IMG/VR virus record: IMGVR_UViG_3300006916_000250
Location: 1 to 29,401 of that record
DNA: 29,401 nt
Reading direction: 5' to 3' (one strand)
From: a virus
In this document: positions 4,455-15,757 of the stretch, one piece after another
Layout of the letters: each line of letters opens with the position of its first letter
Position numbering within the stretch: position 1 is the stretch's first letter
Made by a program: the position numbers and the translations under genes
The notes under the pieces: generated by a model
What the model was told of the DNA's origin: nothing
The model's input: only the letters and a program-made list of their open reading frames with translations
Database searches by the model: none

Positions 4455-4749
4455 CGTATGCCGACTAGGTTACGATTGCGTAAATAGTGATGAGTTTATG
4501 TGGGAGACTACAAAGATTACAGAAGACAGAGTACATGGTAAATTCTGCTATCTAGATATGGGTAGCGAATGGTCAGCAGAGGGCGACTATCTGTACATGT
4601 GTAATGGGTTCTTATGTAGAGGTAGCGGAGCAGAGCCACTATGGATTTTAAAAGACTATGAAAAATATATTGACATTCGATACCATAAAGATTATAGAAG
4701 AAGTATGAGCTATGAGAAAGATGGAGAGAGATACTTGAGATGGGCATAA
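4414..4749 (+). CDS. Hypothetical protein, 111 residues
   Basis: I start at ATG 4414 (MKLIESTKELKVGDVCRL), because GAAGAGGAAAGTG gives a ribosome site and the frame upstream is occupied by the zinc-ribbon gene. The protein is rich in aromatic and charged residues, with beta-like strands around KVGDVCRLGYD and DRVHGKFCYLDMG, and five Cys. It may be a small OB- or SH3-like fold, but I see no defining motif. Its end overlaps the PP-loop enzyme by 10 nt. Confidence 0.65.
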   Translation: MKLIESTKELKVGDVCRLGYDCVNSDEFMWETTKITEDRVHGKFCYLDMGSEWSAEGDYLYMCNGFLCRGSGAEPLWILKDYEKYIDIRYHKDYRRSMSYEKDGERYLRWA

Positions 4750-5495
4750 CAAACAAAGATATTACTGTATGGTTTTCATGTGGGAGTGCTAGTGCCATAG
4801 CTACACTAATGACGCTGAAACACTACGGAGATACTAACAATGTGAGAGTAGTAAATAATCCAGTCAAAGAAGAACATGAGGACAACCAAAGATTTCTGCA
4901 TGATGTGGAGAAGTGGCTAGGTATAAAGATAGAGTACGCTATCAATGAGGATTTTCCTGATTGCTCTGCGGAAACTGTATGGGATAAACATAAGTACATG
5001 GCAGGAATAGCAGGTGCGCCTTGTACTATGCGACTAAAAAAACACGCTAGACAGCAATGGGAGAACAAGAACAACTCCGACTATCTAGTACTTGGATTTA
5101 CTGCTGAGGAGAAGAACAGAGCAGATAGATTTAAGATGACAGAACGTGACACCTTGCTACCTATACTTGTAGATCTTGGGTTAACTAAACAAGATTGTTT
5201 TGACATATTAGCAAAGAACAATATAGAGTTGCCTAAGATCTATAGGTATGGCTTTCCTAATGCGAATTGTATTGGGTGTGTCAAAGCAGGGTCACCTACC
5301 TATTGGAATCTTGTACGTGAGAAGTTTCCTGAGGTATTTGAGAAGAGACTAGAACAATCCAAACGTATTGGAGCAAAGCTAGTCAAGTACAAGGGTAAGC
5401 GATTATTCTTGCATGAGTTACCTAAAGATGCTAAGGGTAGATCACTAAAGAACTATAGCTTTGAGTGTGGTATATTTTGTGAGGAGAGATTATGA
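4740..5495 (+). CDS. PAPS reductase-like PP-loop enzyme
   Basis: The 251-residue protein opens with the PP-loop signature SCGSASA (residues 13-19) of N-type ATP pyrophosphatases and the PAPS reductase/DndC superfamily. GAPCTMRLKK (Cys95) and LGFTAEEKNRADR (118-130) match phage members. Cys177 and Cys180 (NCIGC) and Cys243 and Cys247 (CGIFC) could complete a metal or Fe-S site with Cys95. Phage homologues are often named phosphoadenosine phosphosulfate reductase, but true sulfate reduction is doubtful. A role in tRNA or DNA thiolation is possible. Four-base overlap with the next gene. Confidence 0.75.
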   Translation: MGITNKDITVWFSCGSASAIATLMTLKHYGDTNNVRVVNNPVKEEHEDNQRFLHDVEKWLGIKIEYAINEDFPDCSAETVWDKHKYMAGIAGAPCTMRLKKHARQQWENKNNSDYLVLGFTAEEKNRADRFKMTERDTLLPILVDLGLTKQDCFDILAKNNIELPKIYRYGFPNANCIGCVKAGSPTYWNLVREKFPEVFEKRLEQSKRIGAKLVKYKGKRLFLHELPKDAKGRSLKNYSFECGIFCEERL

Positions 5496-6495: not shown

Positions 6496-6649
6496 ATTAT
6501 ACTTTGATATAATAGATTTAAAAGCTACCATTGACGCACATGAGTTAAGAGATATTAAGCGTGTGCATGATGGCACAGATAATGAAGATACTATTGGAGA
6601 TTTAGTAGACGATTTAGTTGAAGGAATAGAGGAGTTAAAAGATGTATAA
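6482..6649 (+). CDS. Acidic 55-residue protein
   Basis: ATG 6482 overlaps the previous gene, with GGAAGG about 12-17 nt upstream, and its TAA at 6647-6649 overlaps the methyltransferase start. The product is strongly acidic (DNEDTIGDLVDDLVEGIEEL in the C-terminal half). Small acidic phage proteins sometimes mimic DNA or inhibit host enzymes, but nothing here shows that. No family was recognised. Confidence 0.55.
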   Translation: MSISKLYFDIIDLKATIDAHELRDIKRVHDGTDNEDTIGDLVDDLVEGIEELKDV

Positions 6650-7709
6650 AGTAGTAGCAAGTTTCTTTGATGGTTTCTCAGGCACTATGTTTGCATTAAA
6701 CAAACTAGGTATTGAGCCTGACGAGTATCATGCGTTTGAGATAGATCCCTATCCTATTGCAGTGAGCAAGTATAACTTTCCTAGTATCATTCAACATGGT
6801 GATGCTAGGAACTGGACAAAGCTAAAAGGCAAGAAGATTGATCTGTTAGTAGCAGGATTCCCTTGTCAGAGCTACTCAGTTGCAGGTTTGCAGAAGTTCC
6901 AAGATGACCCAAGAGACATGTCTAAGGTGCTGATACAAGCTCTCAAAGAACTAGACGTTGACAAAGTATTGATTGAGAATGTAGCATCTATGCCTACAGA
7001 GTGGCGAGACTACTTTACGCAGACATTCAAAGAGATATTCCCTGACATAAGTCTTTACTTAGAGAATAGTGCCAAGAGTTCTCCGCAGAGTAGGAAAAGA
7101 TTTTACTGGACAAACATCATCTATAATGATATAAAGGATGAGGGTATGGTACTCAATGATATATTAGAAGATGGTGGTATGGCAGATAGAGACAAGTCAC
7201 ATTGCTTAGATGCAAACTATTTTAAAGGTGGTAATCTTAGGCATTACTACAACAAAGCTAGACGACAGATAGTCTTTGACAAGAATGGTTGCAAACAAGT
7301 TGGTGTAGCTGATCTCAAAGGCTATGACATTATCAAGCGTGTCTACAGTAGGCAAGGCAAGAGTCCTACGCTGACAACTATGCAAGGCGGTTGGAGAATG
7401 CCAAAGGTAGAGTGTGATAATTGGATAAATCAAACCACTTTACTAAAAGAAAACGCAGATGTAGACGAGCTTTTTTGGAGAGCATTAACTCCTCTAGAAT
7501 GTGAACGCTTACAAACTGTGCCTGATGGATGTACGCAGTATGGTGACTTTTATGTGTATGAGGAAATAAAGATGCCTTACGAAACTGTTACACACAGAGT
7601 TCGTAAAACAAAAAAGATTAGTAATTCACAACGATACAAGATGCTAGGTAATGGCTTCTGTGTCTCAACAATAGCTAACATATTAAAAGGAGTAGAGATT
7701 AATGACTAG
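6642..7709 (+). CDS. DNA (cytosine-5) methyltransferase
   Basis: This 355-residue protein has the ordered C5-MTase motifs: motif I FDGFSGTMFAL (9-19), motif IV GFPCQSYS with catalytic Cys75, motif VI IENV (111-114), motif VIII QSRKRFYW (149-156), motif IX around TPLECERLQTVP (283-294) and motif X YKMLGNGFCV (332-341). It transfers a methyl group from SAM to cytosine in a specific DNA site. No restriction enzyme is adjacent, so it is an orphan enzyme, likely protecting phage DNA from host nucleases or marking it. It overlaps its neighbours by 8 nt on each side. Full length with all key residues intact. Confidence 0.93.
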   Translation: MYKVVASFFDGFSGTMFALNKLGIEPDEYHAFEIDPYPIAVSKYNFPSIIQHGDARNWTKLKGKKIDLLVAGFPCQSYSVAGLQKFQDDPRDMSKVLIQALKELDVDKVLIENVASMPTEWRDYFTQTFKEIFPDISLYLENSAKSSPQSRKRFYWTNIIYNDIKDEGMVLNDILEDGGMADRDKSHCLDANYFKGGNLRHYYNKARRQIVFDKNGCKQVGVADLKGYDIIKRVYSRQGKSPTLTTMQGGWRMPKVECDNWINQTTLLKENADVDELFWRALTPLECERLQTVPDGCTQYGDFYVYEEIKMPYETVTHRVRKTKKISNSQRYKMLGNGFCVSTIANILKGVEIND

Positions 7710-9298: not shown

Positions 9299-9420
9299 TA
9301 TTTTGGGATTTACAAATACTAATTTTTGTAGTATTATGGCTTTTGATTTTTATAGGAATGTGCGTAGGTAATTATAATGACCTTACAAAAAGACATAAAA
9401 GAAATAAAGAACTTGAGTGA
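9295..9420 (+). CDS. 41-residue holin-like membrane peptide
   Basis: ATG 9295 overlaps the SleB TGA as ATGA. The product is MIFWDLQILIF then a long hydrophobic helix (residues 7-25) followed by a strongly basic tail (KRHKRNKEL). This helix-plus-basic-tail form, coupled to a lysin gene, is typical of small holins. It overlaps the integrase start by 44 nt. Function inferred from context. Confidence 0.6.
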   Translation: MIFWDLQILIFVVLWLLIFIGMCVGNYNDLTKRHKRNKELE

Positions 9421-10300
9421 TATGGTAGGCTACTACCTACGTAGTCCTCAGTTCTTAGCACTTAGACCACAAACTCAGAAAGGTTATGAGTATAGATTGT
9501 CTAATGTGTTACGTACACCAATAACTCCTGCATCAAAGATAGGCGATACTAAGTTGTCAAAACTCAGTGTGGCTCACTGTAAGACAGCCTATCAGATGTG
9601 GTTGAAGAGAGGTGTACGAACTGCTAACGTGATGGCGACAACGACTTCAATAGTTCTTAATATGGCTGAGGAACTGGAGTTGATTGTGCGTAACCCAATG
9701 CGGAGCGTTAGTAAGATGAAGGAGCGTGGACGTAAGGTCATGTGGACAAGCGACCAAGTAAAGGTATTCTTAGATACGGCTTACTCTCAATATAAGTGGA
9801 GAAGCATTGGTTTGATTGTACACATGGCTTACTCTTTCGCTCAAAGGGTGGGGGATATGAGATCTCTAGAATGGAGCAATATCAACTTTGATGAAAAAAG
9901 ACTTGACCTCGAACAATCAAAGAAGAGGGCAGAGGTACACTTGCCTATAGAGGAGAATCTACTTGTCATGCTCACTAAACAGCATGAAGAGTTTGGATTT
10001 CAAAACTATGTTGTACCTCACCCCTACCCTAGAGGTGGACAGTACAGGATCTACAATGATGTAGACATCAGCCCACTGGTAAACAAAGTAAAAGAAGAAG
10101 CGAACTTACCAAAGGAACTTACAGCAATGGATATGAGAAGAACAGCTATCACTGAGATGGTTGAAGCAGGTGTTGATACAACGCAGATCATGGCGGTATC
10201 AGGACACAATAGTCCCAACTCAATCGCCCCCTACATCAAACATACCTACAACTCAGCGAGTAACGCACTCAGTAGAAGGGAGACATATAAGAATGCCTAA
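9377..10300 (+). CDS. int: Tyrosine recombinase / phage integrase
   Basis: The 307-residue protein has an N-terminal SAM-like core-binding part (about 10-110) and a catalytic domain with Arg157 (QRVGDMRSLEW), a Lys near 183, Arg254 (MDMRRTAITEM), His277 (SGHNSPNSIAPY) and the nucleophile Tyr286. The box II His (three residues before Arg254) is Met251, a change that also occurs in some active integrases. It should recombine attP with a host site, indicating at least the remnants of a temperate lifestyle. HMO-2011 also encodes an integrase. It lies inside the early operon with no adjacent non-coding attP and no repressor gene in view. The gene starts at ATG 9377. Confidence 0.9.
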   Translation: MTLQKDIKEIKNLSDMVGYYLRSPQFLALRPQTQKGYEYRLSNVLRTPITPASKIGDTKLSKLSVAHCKTAYQMWLKRGVRTANVMATTTSIVLNMAEELELIVRNPMRSVSKMKERGRKVMWTSDQVKVFLDTAYSQYKWRSIGLIVHMAYSFAQRVGDMRSLEWSNINFDEKRLDLEQSKKRAEVHLPIEENLLVMLTKQHEEFGFQNYVVPHPYPRGGQYRIYNDVDISPLVNKVKEEANLPKELTAMDMRRTAITEMVEAGVDTTQIMAVSGHNSPNSIAPYIKHTYNSASNALSRRETYKNA

Positions 10301-11081
10301 CATACCCTCAAGAGATTTCTTACAGAATCTTGACATCAAAGAAGGAGAGACAATTAATATGGATTGTCCCAAGTGTAATGGTGTTAAGAAGTTTTCGGTT
10401 AGTAACCTAGATGGCATGTTGCTATACAACTGCTATCGTGCATCCTGCGATGTGAAGGGTTCTTTCCTGACAAACATGTTAGTTGATACTATCAAACAAA
10501 AACTAAGTGGCGAGATAGAAGGAAAGCCACACGAAAAGTTTGAGATGCCTGAGCATATAACAGATGGAGACAACTCTTATATACAACGCTTTAGATCACG
10601 ATGGGATTTAATGATAGATGTGTTGTACGATGTTAAAGATAAACGAGCAGTGTTCCCAATATACAAGAATGGCAGACTTGTTGACGCTATTGGTAGAGCA
10701 TTGTATGATGCGTACCCAAAGTGGTACAAGTATGGGAAGGCAGGTAAGTATTATTCTTACTGTATAAAGCCATGCAAAAAGATAGCTGTTGTAGTTGAGG
10801 ATTGTATATCCGCTACGGTGGTAGGTCAGCATATAATAGGAGTCACTGGTGTTGCACTTCTAGGAACGAATCTTTTGAGAGAGCATAAAGAATATCTTGA
10901 TACGTTTGACAAGATTATTGTTGCTCTTGATCCAGATGCTCTTGGTAAAACAATAGAGTATACCAAAGAGTTGAAAAGCTACTGTGATCCCTCTGTGGTA
11001 ATAGCGATGCCCATAGAGGATGATCTTAAATATAAACGAGAAGCAGACATGCTTAAATTAAGGGAGTTAGTTAATGCTTGA
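10293..11081 (+). CDS. DNA primase (zinc-binding plus TOPRIM)
   Basis: I start at ATG 10293 (MPNIPSRDFLQ), overlapping the integrase stop by 8 nt, with GGGAG upstream. The 262-residue product has a zinc ribbon (CPKC at 25-28, then Cys47 and Cys52), like the N-terminus of T7 gp4. Its TOPRIM core has Glu169 (VVEDCISA) and the Asp213-x-Asp215 pair (ALDPDALGKT). It lays RNA primers on the lagging strand. Unlike T7 gp4, the helicase is a separate gene, with a nuclease gene between them. Longer readings from 10161 run through the integrase in another frame. Confidence 0.88.
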   Translation: MPNIPSRDFLQNLDIKEGETINMDCPKCNGVKKFSVSNLDGMLLYNCYRASCDVKGSFLTNMLVDTIKQKLSGEIEGKPHEKFEMPEHITDGDNSYIQRFRSRWDLMIDVLYDVKDKRAVFPIYKNGRLVDAIGRALYDAYPKWYKYGKAGKYYSYCIKPCKKIAVVVEDCISATVVGQHIIGVTGVALLGTNLLREHKEYLDTFDKIIVALDPDALGKTIEYTKELKSYCDPSVVIAMPIEDDLKYKREADMLKLRELVNA

Positions 11082-11571
11082 TACAATAAACCCATTGACA
11101 GGTAAGAATTATTATTATAAAGATAGTGTTGAGGCAGTAAAGAAAAGGAACGATGCACAGATGTATGTAGACGGTAAGTACGTACCCAAGTCACACCCAT
11201 TGTATAAGCCGGGAAAGTATAAAACATTTAATGATGCTGCTTTTTCTGCTTTACAGAACTATGAGACTTGTCCAAAAGGAGAAGTATACATTCTTAAAAA
11301 TCCTGCGTGGAAGGATTGGTACAAGGTAGGTAAGGCTGTCGATGCGACAGATAGATGTAAGAGCTATCAGACTAGCAGTCCTCATAGAGACTACGAGCTA
11401 GTTACATTTGCGAAGGTTGAGGACAGAAACAAAGCAGAGAAGTTACTACATAGTCACTTTACTTTTAAATCAAGAGAGCGAAGGGGCGAGTGGTTTCATC
11501 TTACTAATTATAATAAAAGCAAATTCGATTCAGCATTAAGGAGAGTTAATGATAGAACTAGCACTAATTAG
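11074..11571 (+). CDS. T5orf172 / GIY-YIG superfamily nuclease
   Basis: In this 165-residue protein, GEVYILKNP (69-77) and WYKVGKA (82-88) correspond to the GIY and YIG strands. Arg94 (DRCKSYQT), Glu122 (KAEKLLHSHF) and GEWFHL (138-143) complete the T5orf172/MUG113 pattern. The N-terminal 65 residues may bind DNA or partners. It would nick or cut DNA, in recombination, host DNA degradation or homing. It lies between primase and helicase with 8-nt and 23-nt overlaps, so it is integrated in the operon rather than loosely inserted. Confidence 0.85.
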   Translation: MLDTINPLTGKNYYYKDSVEAVKKRNDAQMYVDGKYVPKSHPLYKPGKYKTFNDAAFSALQNYETCPKGEVYILKNPAWKDWYKVGKAVDATDRCKSYQTSSPHRDYELVTFAKVEDRNKAEKLLHSHFTFKSRERRGEWFHLTNYNKSKFDSALRRVNDRTSTN

Positions 11572-12772
11572 GAGTCTAATGCAAAAAGATTTCTATGACG
11601 ATCATAAGGGCAGTAAATGTCCAGATAGATTGTTTAGTAAAGATGTTAGGAAGATTAAGCAAACGCTTGATACAACGATGAACAAGTATGAAAGGGATGT
11701 CTCTTTGACAGAGCTACAAGCATTGTTCTTTTCTAACAACGGCACTATGACATCAGCGAACAGAGCTTCTTACGAGGTTCTGTTCAGCAAGCTGTCTAAA
11801 GAAGACGCTATGAATAACGAGATAGCGAAGGAAGTGCTGTCTAAATTATTTCAACAGATGGTAGGAGAGGAGATTGCCAATCTTGGATTTGACTATGTAA
11901 ACGGAACGAAGACCAACCTAGAACCCCTACGAAACATACTTGACAACTATCAAGATGACTTTACACCTAGCTTCCGCTTTGAGGGAGATGATATAAGTTT
12001 CAATACGTTACTAGAACATCTTAATGTAAAGTATCAGTGGAAGTTTAACATCCCGTCCTTGCGTAGACGAGTTGAAGGACTAAGTGGCGGTCACTTTGTG
12101 ATAGTCGGTGCAAGACCTAACACTGGTAAAACATCTTTTCATGCTAGTCTTATAGCATCAGAGGGTGGCTTTATAGATCAAGGTGCAAAGTGTGTAGTGC
12201 TGTGTAATGAAGAAGCCTATAAGCGAGTCGGTCTGCGGTATCTGTATTGTAAGTCTAAAATGTCTAGCGAAGAAGTTTTAGAGAACAGAGACTTAGCTAT
12301 CAAGAGATACGCTCCTGTAAAAGAGTTACTATCTATCAAGGATGCTACAGATAAACGTATGGATTATGTAGAACAGCTTGCAAAAAGCGTCAAACCTGAT
12401 ATAATAGTTCTCGATATGGGAGATAAGTTTGCAGTGTCAGGTTCAGATAGATCAGATATTTATTTAAAAGAGGCAGCGATTCACGCTAGAAATATAGCAA
12501 AGAAGTACAACTGTGCTATTATATGGATGTCTCAGCTATCAGCAGAGGCTGAAGGTAAGATAAATGTCAATCAATCTATGCTTGAAGGCAGTAAAACTGG
12601 TAAGGCAGCCGAAGCAGATTTGATGTTATTAATTAGTAAGAACCCTGAGATTGAGGGTCAGGACAGTAACGATCCTCAACGTCACATTAGATTGGCTAAA
12701 AACAAACTAACAGGTTGGCATGGCACAGTGCATGTCGAGCTAGATGTAGAGAGAGGTATATATTCAGCATGA
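11549..12772 (+). CDS. Replicative DnaB-like helicase
   Basis: The 407-residue protein carries a RecA-type motor: Walker A GARPNTGKTS (187-196), Walker B DIIVLDMGD (284-292) and a WMSQLSAEAEGK sensor region. GSKTGKAAEADLML and RLAKNKLTGWHG match the DnaB H3/H4 and arginine-finger area. It unwinds the fork 5' to 3' as a hexamer. The N-terminal about 150 residues replace the DnaB N-domain or T7 linker. AAGGAGAG precedes the ATG, and the TGA overlaps the polymerase ATG as ATGA. Confidence 0.9.
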   Translation: MIELALIRSLMQKDFYDDHKGSKCPDRLFSKDVRKIKQTLDTTMNKYERDVSLTELQALFFSNNGTMTSANRASYEVLFSKLSKEDAMNNEIAKEVLSKLFQQMVGEEIANLGFDYVNGTKTNLEPLRNILDNYQDDFTPSFRFEGDDISFNTLLEHLNVKYQWKFNIPSLRRRVEGLSGGHFVIVGARPNTGKTSFHASLIASEGGFIDQGAKCVVLCNEEAYKRVGLRYLYCKSKMSSEEVLENRDLAIKRYAPVKELLSIKDATDKRMDYVEQLAKSVKPDIIVLDMGDKFAVSGSDRSDIYLKEAAIHARNIAKKYNCAIIWMSQLSAEAEGKINVNQSMLEGSKTGKAAEADLMLLISKNPEIEGQDSNDPQRHIRLAKNKLTGWHGTVHVELDVERGIYSA

Positions 12773-14841
12773 AGATTGTACTTGATGTAGAGAATACTAC
12801 AACAAAGAGGGATGGCAAGTTACATCTTGACCCTTTTGAACCTGACAATTCTTTGACACTCGTTGGTGTGTCAGATTATCTTGACAATGATACGACCGTA
12901 TTTGTGTTTGACCACAAAGAAAAGACTATAGAAGATGATGATGCAGACAAAAGATTGCAAAGAGTGCTTGACAACACTACATTATTGATAGGTCACAACC
13001 TACAATATGACCTTCAATGGCTTTGGGCATGTGGTTTTAAGTATGATGGCGAGATTTTTGACACAATGTTAGGTGATTATATACTACAACGTGGTCAGAA
13101 GGGGTCTGTGAGCCTAGAAAACTGTGCAATACGGCACAATTTGGACATGAAGAAGTCAGATACACTAAAAAATTACTTTACCAGAGGGTTTCAGACAGAT
13201 GATATACCTCTTGACGAGCTATCAGAGTATCTAAAGCAGGATCTCAGGGTAACACGAGAGCTTTATTGGAAGTTAATGGACGAATATGCCAAGCCTGAGT
13301 CCCAATCTTTAGTAAATGTTCGTGATATAAACAACGAAGTGTGCAAAACACTAGCAAGAATGTACATGAATGGCTTTGCAGTGGACAAAGATGCTCTTGC
13401 TCACGTTAGAAAAGACTTTGAAGACGAGCTTTTGGATATAGAAAACAGGTTAAATACATTTGTCAAGAAATTAATGGGCGATACACCAATAAATCTCAAC
13501 TCTCCTGAGCAGGTTAGTCAAGTTATCTACTCTAGAATACTACATGATAAGAAAAAGTGGGCGGTTGCCTTTGATCATGCTGACACAAAAGAAGAATTTA
13601 GAAAGGCTGTCAAGGAAAATAGTTCTATGATGGTAAAAACTAAGGCTAGTGTATGTAAAACGTGCAATGGTGAGGGTAAAATACGCAAGATAAAGAAGGA
13701 TGGGACTCCATTTGCCAAGCCTAGTCGCTGTGTAGACTGCGATACGAGAGGTTATAAGCTTACAAAACTAAAAGAAATGGCAGGTCTTGGCTTCTTTCCC
13801 CCATCAAAGACATGGGTTAGTGCCAATGGTTTCTCTACAAGCAAGGGTAATCTAGAAGGTCTTATAAATATAGCTAAGGCAAAGGATCTTACCTACGCAG
13901 AATCATTCTTGTCAGATCTCAAGAGACAGAGTGCTGTGTCTAGTTATCTCTCTGCGTTTGTTGAGGGGATAACAATACATACAAAGAGCGACAATAGGCT
14001 ACACGTAAAGCTACTACAGCACAGAACTGCCACTGGTAGATTTAGCGGAGCAGATCCTAACATGCAGAATATGCCAAGGGGCGGTACGTTTCCTGTTAAG
14101 AAAGTATTTGTGTCTCGTTGGAACTGTGATCAGTTTGGCATGAAGGGTAAGATACTAGAAGCAGACTTTGCACAGCTAGAATTTAGAGTGGCAGCACTTC
14201 TGTCGCAGGATAAAGTTGCAATGCAAGAAGTATCTACAGGTTTTGATGTTCACTCCTACACGGCTAAAATTATCTCTGAGGCAGGTCAACCTACCACTAG
14301 GCAAGAAGCTAAGGCACACACCTTTGCACCCCTCTATGGAGCTACAGGGTTCGGTAGAACGAAAGCTGAGGCTGAGTATTACACACACTTTATGAGCAAG
14401 TACAAAGGTATAGCTAAATGGCACAAGAAGTTAGGTGACGAGGCTATAAATCTTGGCAGAGTGAAGATACCATCAGGTAGACAGTATGCTTTTCCTGATG
14501 TAGAGAGAAGAGCAAGTGGTGCGCCTACGCACTTCACCATGATAAAGAACTATCCTGTGCAAGGCTTTGCCACTGGTGATATAGTTCCTATAGTTTTATT
14601 AGAGATAGAGAAGCTATTGAAGATAGATAATTTAAAGAGTATGTTAGTAAATAGTGTGCATGATTCTGTAGTGTTGGATGTCCATCCTGCAGAAGTTGAC
14701 AAGGTGCTGAACATAATACGACAAGTTAATAAGAACCTAAAGATTATAATAGAAAGTCATTACGATATAGATGTAAATGTACCAATGTTATTAGAATCAA
14801 AAATAGGTGATAATTGGCTTGACGTAGCAGATGTTCAGTGA
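12769..14841 (+). CDS. polA: Family A DNA polymerase with DnaJ-type zinc finger (HMO-2011 type)
   Basis: The start is ATG 12769, coupled to the helicase by ATGA (690 residues). The proofreading domain is intact: Asp6 and Glu8 (LDVEN), Asp81 (GHNLQYD) and Asp158 (YLKQD). Two CxxC knuckles follow, CKTCNGEGK (Cys296, 299) and CVDCDTRGY (Cys321, 324), a partial DnaJ central domain. Polymerase motif A is LEADFAQLEFR (Asp466), motif B is RQEAKAHTFAPLYG (Arg511, Lys515, Phe519, Tyr523) and motif C is VHDSVVLD (His631, Asp632). Ser633 stands where Pol I has Glu, and Phe519 equals residue 762 of E. coli Pol I. It replicates the phage genome. The finger is the hallmark that ties the window to HMO-2011-type phages. 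Confidence 0.95.
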   Translation: MKIVLDVENTTTKRDGKLHLDPFEPDNSLTLVGVSDYLDNDTTVFVFDHKEKTIEDDDADKRLQRVLDNTTLLIGHNLQYDLQWLWACGFKYDGEIFDTMLGDYILQRGQKGSVSLENCAIRHNLDMKKSDTLKNYFTRGFQTDDIPLDELSEYLKQDLRVTRELYWKLMDEYAKPESQSLVNVRDINNEVCKTLARMYMNGFAVDKDALAHVRKDFEDELLDIENRLNTFVKKLMGDTPINLNSPEQVSQVIYSRILHDKKKWAVAFDHADTKEEFRKAVKENSSMMVKTKASVCKTCNGEGKIRKIKKDGTPFAKPSRCVDCDTRGYKLTKLKEMAGLGFFPPSKTWVSANGFSTSKGNLEGLINIAKAKDLTYAESFLSDLKRQSAVSSYLSAFVEGITIHTKSDNRLHVKLLQHRTATGRFSGADPNMQNMPRGGTFPVKKVFVSRWNCDQFGMKGKILEADFAQLEFRVAALLSQDKVAMQEVSTGFDVHSYTAKIISEAGQPTTRQEAKAHTFAPLYGATGFGRTKAEAEYYTHFMSKYKGIAKWHKKLGDEAINLGRVKIPSGRQYAFPDVERRASGAPTHFTMIKNYPVQGFATGDIVPIVLLEIEKLLKIDNLKSMLVNSVHDSVVLDVHPAEVDKVLNIIRQVNKNLKIIIESHYDIDVNVPMLLESKIGDNWLDVADVQ

Positions 14842-14875: not shown

Positions 14876-15757
14876 ATGGAAAATGGTTTAGCAATAATTG
14901 GAAAATCTAGTGCTGATTTAGCAGAGTTGATGGGTATGTCAAATCTACCTGCTCGTTCTACCTCAGCACTGGCAGAGATTAAACAGGTTCATCAGAACGT
15001 AATGGGTACAAAGAAGGTGGATGGTGAGATGATGGAAGTTGCCATTGTTAAGGCAGGTGCTTTCTCAGTAGTGTTCCCTGATGAATCTGTTTATTACAGT
15101 GACAAGATAACTATACGACCTTTCATGCAACGCTTTCAGTTTCAGCGATACGATAAAAACTATCAAAGACCTGATGGCGGTGAAGGTAGAATGTTACGCA
15201 CTGTTATGGCAACGTCCTTGAATGGGGACTTAAAGGATAACTATGGTGGGTTCAACTGTGGAAGACCATCAGGTTACGTCAAAGACTTTGACTCGTTGCC
15301 ACAAGAGACACAAGACCTTATGAGAAGCACCGACAGGTTCAAGATCATATTTGGTTTGTGTACACTCGACAGCCCAAAGGATGCTGAGGGTAAACCAACT
15401 GAAGTAAAGGAGTTTCCTTTCTTAATGAGAATAAAAAACCGTGACAGTTTTAAGGCTATGACTGACTTGTTTTCTCAGATACAAAGAAAGAATAGACTTC
15501 CTATTCAACATTTAGTTCACATGTCGTCACAAGTAAAGAGTATACCTAGTGGTGCTACCTACGCTGTTATGAAACCGTATCTAGGTGAGTTAGTAGAGAT
15601 TAATACTGACGATCAGGAGACACTAAATAATTTTGTCGAGTGGGTTGAGTCTATGAACTCTATCACATTAAGTAAATGGGAGGAGCATCATCGTCCTGAC
15701 GAGTTGTCAGGAGACGAAGAAGAGATTGCTTCTGAGATTATTGAGATAGAGGAGTAG
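14876..15757 (+). CDS. Putative single-stranded DNA-binding protein
   Basis: The 293-residue protein shows no motif I know for certain. It has many beta-type segments rich in aromatics and basic residues (ITIRPFMQRFQFQRYDKN, about 79-96; PFLMRIKNRDSFKAMTDLF, about 185-203). It ends in a strongly acidic tail (DELSGDEEE to EIIEIEE). That tail, its place between polymerase and exonuclease (where T7 has gp2.5) and its own strong promoter and ribosome site all suit an abundant SSB. The call is inference; a structural or recombination mediator is an alternative. The exonuclease starts 2 nt after its stop. Confidence 0.6.
   Translation: MENGLAIIGKSSADLAELMGMSNLPARSTSALAEIKQVHQNVMGTKKVDGEMMEVAIVKAGAFSVVFPDESVYYSDKITIRPFMQRFQFQRYDKNYQRPDGGEGRMLRTVMATSLNGDLKDNYGGFNCGRPSGYVKDFDSLPQETQDLMRSTDRFKIIFGLCTLDSPKDAEGKPTEVKEFPFLMRIKNRDSFKAMTDLFSQIQRKNRLPIQHLVHMSSQVKSIPSGATYAVMKPYLGELVEINTDDQETLNNFVEWVESMNSITLSKWEEHHRPDELSGDEEEIASEIIEIEE

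Follow-up and report, generated by a model that had tools for sequence, protein, structure and literature searches.

The window, i.e. the whole stretch of 29,401 nucleotides analysed here, a 29.4 kb fragment that constitutes the virus record IMGVR_UViG_3300006916_000250, codes for a replicative family A DNA polymerase that very probably bears a single-zinc, DnaJ centre II-like finger at the tip of its thumb, through which it may grip DNA or a replisome partner. For this account as a whole we estimate a probability of roughly 0.7. A DnaJ-like finger is already known as a hallmark of the HMO-2011 group of phages. New are the placement of the finger at the thumb tip, its identification with zinc centre II, the single gain and the proposal of a mechanism. 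The HMO-2011 group is among the commonest ocean phages, and the polymerase is their replication enzyme. A thumb-tip placement beside the processivity insertion of T7, though not at the same site, makes an odd annotation directly testable.

A polymerase of the HMO-2011 group

The plus-strand frame of polA is open over 690 residues, the minus strand is closed, and the ATG shares four bases with the end of the upstream helicase gene. The following features of the gene and its two neighbours were delineated.

11549–12772, plus strand: DnaB-type helicase gene adjoining polA (Pfam)
12769–14841, plus strand: polA, HMO-2011-type family A DNA polymerase, 690 aa
12784–12792, plus strand: exonuclease motif I, D6xE8, invariant in the 68-row alignment
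12994–13011, plus strand: exonuclease motif II, HNxxxD, residues 76–81, with H76, N77 and D81 invariant
13228–13242, plus strand: exonuclease motif III, Y154xxxD158, invariant
14158–14181, plus strand: polymerase motif A, EADFAQLE, residues 464–471, with the catalytic D466
14299–14337, plus strand: polymerase motif B, R511...K515...F519 (762 position)...Y523
14656–14667, plus strand: polymerase motif C, VHDS, residues 630–633
14876–15757, plus strand: conserved ORF directly 3′ of polA, with an acidic C-terminal tail

Pfam profiles assign residues 42–172 to a 3′-5′ exonuclease and residues 352–684 to DNA_pol_A, with DnaJ_CXXCXGXG (290–331) between them. The exonuclease is intact, as the first-pass annotation had stated, for D6, E8, N77, D81, Y154 and D158 do not vary across the 68 aligned sequences. 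By alignment, R754, K758 and Y766 of the E. coli enzyme correspond to R511, K515 and Y523, and the equivalent of residue 762 is F519. The earlier reading of motif C as HDS (V630-H-D-S633) and of Phe at position 762 was thus correct in both respects. We considered these two features as hallmarks of the finger clade and rejected them, because relatives that have no finger possess both. They occur in StenR269 and in the more distant ICP2, MEP401 and SBSphiC, and so predate the finger.

In full-length tblastn comparisons the best phage matches were the Roseobacter phages CRP-2 (61%) and CRP-603, and Puniceispirillum phage HMO-2011 reached 56.9%. CRP-2 is the closest cultured relative, and identity to isolates is at most 61%. 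The genes follow in the order integrase, primase, DnaB-type helicase, polA, ORF, Cas4-like exonuclease, endonuclease I and class II RNR. The order of the replication module matches that of HMO-2011 and CRP-2, and the integrase gene lies upstream, as in subgroup I. HMO-2011-type phages are characterised by a partial DnaJ domain with two CXXCXGXG motifs in the DNA polymerase (PMC9038755), and such a domain is present here. That this domain is a published hallmark had been stated correctly; the GenBank record of HMO-2011 gp12 itself lists PF00684. As homology, neighbourhood and the annotated PF00684 all match, the observation from which the analysis set out is an ordinary one for the group, and the polymerase almost certainly belongs to the HMO-2011-type marine phages and their known architecture.

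The surroundings of the module hold further genes. An ORF of the GIY-YIG/T5orf172-MUG113 type (11074–11571, plus strand) lies between primase and helicase and has no counterpart in the replication module annotated for HMO-2011. Two more genes lie upstream of the integrase gene on the plus strand; one is PAPS-reductase-like (4740–5495), and the other codes for a C5 cytosine DNA methyltransferase (6642–7709). The integrase itself (9377–10300, plus strand) is of the tyrosine type, so a temperate lifestyle is possible, as published for some members of the HMO-2011 group.

In a polA phylogeny computed with the insert columns removed, the polymerase falls inside the clade of the HMO-2011 isolates (support 100/99). 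In this tree all rows with a finger lie on one side of one branch (100/99), i.e. a single change accounts for its distribution. From a phylogenetic perspective, the finger was gained once in the HMO-2011 group, and no loss was seen. The sister clade (98/93) consists of StenR269-type polymerases, which have a short thumb tip and in which we found no pair of CxxC pairs. The absence of the DnaJ-like domain from MEP401 and MEP402 has already been published (PMC10580990). Two side observations concern these relatives: in StenR269 a thioredoxin-domain gene (388–654 of the StenR269 locus) lies just upstream of the finger-less polA, and the polymerases of MEP401 and ICP2 are each split into two ORFs, as published for MEP401.

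Conservation and predicted fold of the finger

The finger comprises two cysteine knuckles and the loop between them.

13633–13779, plus strand: zinc-finger hairpin, residues 289–337; strands 289–295 and 329–337 bracket both knuckles
13654–13677, plus strand: knuckle 1, C296xxC299xGxG303
13678–13728, plus strand: inter-knuckle loop, residues 304–320, net charge +6
13729–13752, plus strand: knuckle 2, C321xxC324xxxG328

The CxxCxGxG unit at residues 296–303 and the second CxxC at 321–324 are exactly where the first-pass annotation had placed them; the remaining cysteines of the polymerase are at positions 88, 119, 192 and 453. Its description of the second CxxC as degraded does not hold with regard to possible zinc ligands: both cysteines are kept, together with G328, and position 326 alone varies (G/T/A/S). 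In the window polymerase knuckle 2 reads CxxCxTxG, as in part of the HMO-2011-type isolates. An HMM search against DnaJ_CXXCXGXG matched residues 290–331 with E-values of 1e-3 (whole protein) and 1.9e-5 (fragment), at scores of 19.7 and 25.3 bits, which are under the curated cut-off of 32.7 bits. The same profile matches 68/68 members of the finger alignment (best E 1.5e-8), and on sequence grounds the motif is not due to chance. PF00684 has four motifs and two zinc sites; the finger has two motifs and one possible site, and no J-domain was among the Pfam matches of the polymerase.

The four cysteines are invariant in the 68-row alignment. In a set of 257 full-length polymerases, which was collected from IMG/VR and includes three distant finger-less outgroups, each of the four columns is Cys in 254. 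Both CxxC pairs occur in every clade member sampled, none of which had lost one pair alone. In a wider set, enlarged by further IMG/VR relatives, the spacing between the pairs is exactly 21 residues in 313 of the 314 sequences having both and 33 in one; the polymerase of phage CRP-738, with a 12-residue insertion between the knuckles, is an exception to the rule. The knuckle glycines are more variable than the cysteines: one Gly is missing in six members, which a regular expression for the full motif did not pick up, yet both CxxC pairs were confirmed in all six. Cysteine pairs kept together at a fixed spacing are the pattern that a single four-Cys metal site predicts.

When 50,697 phage records were searched with the finger region (tblastn), only HMO-2011-type phages matched above chance. 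Matches in bacterial genome assemblies are mostly phage contigs within MAGs. The same HMO-2011-type contigs are filed in two unrelated MAGs, Flavobacteriales TMED123 and Neomarinimicrobiota MED589, which is probably a binning artefact and not a host assignment.

AlphaFold2 modelling of the full-length protein, based on the 68 aligned sequences, gave a mean pLDDT of 90, with block means of 83–93 in the finger region. The alignments used in the analysis are shallow; Neff is about 2.5 for the full-length one. According to DSSP, strands 289–295 and 329–337 of the model flank the knuckles, with short strands at 304–305 and 319–320 between them, and residues 278–346 modelled alone adopted the same hairpin. 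Among PDB sequences, the finger profile matches E. coli DnaJ best (1exk, E 4e-5), over the stretch with motifs 2 and 3, followed by the phage antitermination protein Q (E 0.017). In DnaJ, motifs 2 and 3 pair as zinc centre II. Foldseek returned DnaJA2, BSD2 and Anti-TRAP as top matches (probability 0.95–0.99, E 0.2–0.4) and, lower, the DNA-binding protein UvrA (35 columns, 2.1 Å, E 1.1). The weak E-values are expected because the finger has only 69 residues; the list of matches is nonetheless coherent. Furthermore, the Pfam Anti-TRAP profile matches 22 of the 68 members. At the sequence level the finger thus matches DnaJ zinc centre II, and its predicted fold agrees with DnaJ-type zinc domains.

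That both knuckles form one zinc-binding element, as proposed earlier, is supported by the AlphaFold2 hairpins, by the 1exk and Foldseek matches and by the fixed cysteine spacing. The models gave no sign of cysteines lying far apart; the joining of the knuckles by an antiparallel hairpin, and with it the convergence of the four cysteines, is suggested by the strand pairing in the two models and by the fold matches. C296, C299, C321 and C324 very probably make up one putative zinc site at the thumb tip. Literature searches on a zinc finger in the polymerase of HMO-2011 and on zinc in the thumb of T7 retrieved nothing, and the literature searched held no biochemical data on the HMO-2011-type finger.

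Position of the finger in the thumb

Two conserved thumb motifs locate the insertion that contains the finger.

13492–13512, plus strand: thumb motif NLNSPEQ, residues 242–248, equivalent to FNLSS of E. coli Pol I and FNPSS of T7
13537–13824, plus strand: thumb-tip insertion, about residues 257–352, missing in E. coli Pol I and for the most part in StenR269-type polymerases
13831–13857, plus strand: thumb motif FSTSKGNLE, residues 355–363, equivalent to STSEEVLEEL of E. coli and VVDDEVLEGV of T7

The NLNSPEQ helix and FSTSKxNLE flank the finger insertion within the thumb. In a profile alignment with E. coli Pol I the insert falls between FNLSSTKQLQTILFEKQG and STSEEVLEEL, and the alignment with StenR269, the nearest relative lacking a finger, shows the same insertion site, with a short tip in place of the finger. 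The finger had been described as lying between the exonuclease and the polymerase; according to both alignments it is instead nested inside the polymerase thumb, which supports the suggested thumb location. The placement relative to E. coli relies on the profile alignment together with the StenR269 alignment; the pairwise local alignment of the thumb motifs is non-significant alone (score 30, shuffle maximum 39). Because a global profile alignment made directly to T7 misplaced the thumb, the T7 placement is based on the local alignment of E. coli FNLSS...STSEEVLEEL with T7 FNPSS...VVDDEVLEGV (score 69, shuffle maximum 55).

The thioredoxin-binding domain (TBD) of T7 polymerase comprises approximately residues 258–333 and is N-terminal of FNPSS. 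The T7 enzyme has a flexible region near residue 300 (PMC5984650). It had been suggested that the finger replaces the thioredoxin-binding loop of T7. The motif alignment rules out a replacement at the same site: the T7 insert precedes FNPSS, whereas the finger follows NLNSPEQ and precedes FSTSK, one loop away. Since one comes before and the other after, they are separate insertions that flank the same thumb helix. The suggestion was right in spirit, i.e. with regard to the thumb tip, and wrong in position.

A basic loop and its possible role

No other stretch of 17 residues in the polymerase is as basic as residues 304–320. The charge of the inter-knuckle loop is between +4 and +7 in 68/68 members, whereas the whole proteins average −6, and K307, K310 and G312 are kept in the 68-row alignment. 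In the mechanism that we propose, zinc would staple a β-hairpin at the loop of the polymerase thumb tip, and the basic tip of this hairpin would touch the newly made duplex or dock an acidic-tailed replisome partner. The finger could thereby help to hold the polymerase on DNA, with an effect like that of the thioredoxin-binding insertion of T7, though it is not the same insertion. For the grip itself, be it on DNA or on a partner, we see about even odds; loops of basic character bind RNA or proteins as well. A bolder version, in which the finger is a self-contained zinc-stapled processivity clamp that was gained once and takes over the task of TBD and thioredoxin together, with no need of a host factor, is tentative and rather unlikely.

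The finger might contact no DNA and serve purely as a dock for a replisome partner, either the protein encoded by the ORF at 14876–15757 or the DnaB-type helicase. The tail of this conserved adjacent ORF is acidic, with a mean charge of −8.6 over the last 25 residues (59 loci), and the thumb insertion of T7 docks the C-tail of SSB (PMC7699545). On the other hand, the helicase tail is not acidic, and neither Pfam nor neighbourhood comparison assigned the ORF to a family or revealed an SSB domain in it; we regard its product as a candidate ssDNA-binding protein and polymerase partner. The loop charge, the T7 parallels and the acidic tail fit DNA grip and partner dock alike, without separating them. 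Docking to the exclusion of DNA contact we consider unlikely.

A purely structural role, with zinc merely stabilising a long thumb-tip loop, is a little less probable still. MEP401, ICP2 and Scott have Cys-free thumb-tip inserts at a similar place, so this loop tolerates varied inserts. However, a loop charge of +4 to +7 in all 68 members and the retention of K307, K310 and G312 exceed what the stability of a fold would need. Recruitment of the host chaperone DnaK, as by zinc centre II of DnaJ, is very improbable. The match to motifs 2 and 3 would agree with it, centre II is reported as important for the DnaK interaction in a paper that cites earlier work on it (PMC4428491), and DnaJ serves the replication of lambda (PMC9038755), but the polymerase has no J-domain, the part that drives DnaK, and the same type of finger occurs in BSD2 and Anti-TRAP, which are devoid of a J-domain. 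Finally, a role of the CxxC pairs as thiol switch or reductase in the stead of thioredoxin, to which the weak thiol-reductase activity of the DnaJ zinc domain (PMC4428491) and a glutaredoxin gene near polA in CRP-2 might lend colour, is likewise very improbable, as T7 needs no redox function of thioredoxin (PMC5984650) and the four cysteines keep the fixed spacing typical of structural zinc.

Comparison with known systems

The HMO-2011-type polymerases of HMO-2011, CRP-1/2/3 and HTVC033P (PMC9038755, PMC6918029) share full-length homology and the same exonuclease-finger-polymerase order with the window polymerase; in comparison to these isolates, the phage in the window is an uncultured member. 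The polymerase of StenR269 has HDS and Phe762 in common with it; StenR269-type polymerases lack the finger. The central zinc domain of DnaJ (PF00684) likewise has a pair of CxxCxGxG-type knuckles making one four-Cys site on a hairpin. Unlike DnaJ, the polymerase finger is devoid of centre I and of a J-domain, is inserted in a polymerase and has a longer, more basic inter-knuckle loop. Anti-TRAP and BSD2 are DnaJ-type zinc domains that lack a J-domain and match the finger in predicted fold; in contrast to the finger, they are small stand-alone proteins that act in RNA regulation or Rubisco assembly. T7 polymerase differs from the window polymerase at the 762 position, where it has Tyr, and in motif C, which reads HDE. 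Its TBD is also a thumb-tip insertion with basic residues in a phage family A polymerase, and in simulations these residues touch the DNA backbone (PMC5984650). In contrast to the finger, the TBD lies on the opposite side of the FNPSS helix, is zinc-free and binds thioredoxin.
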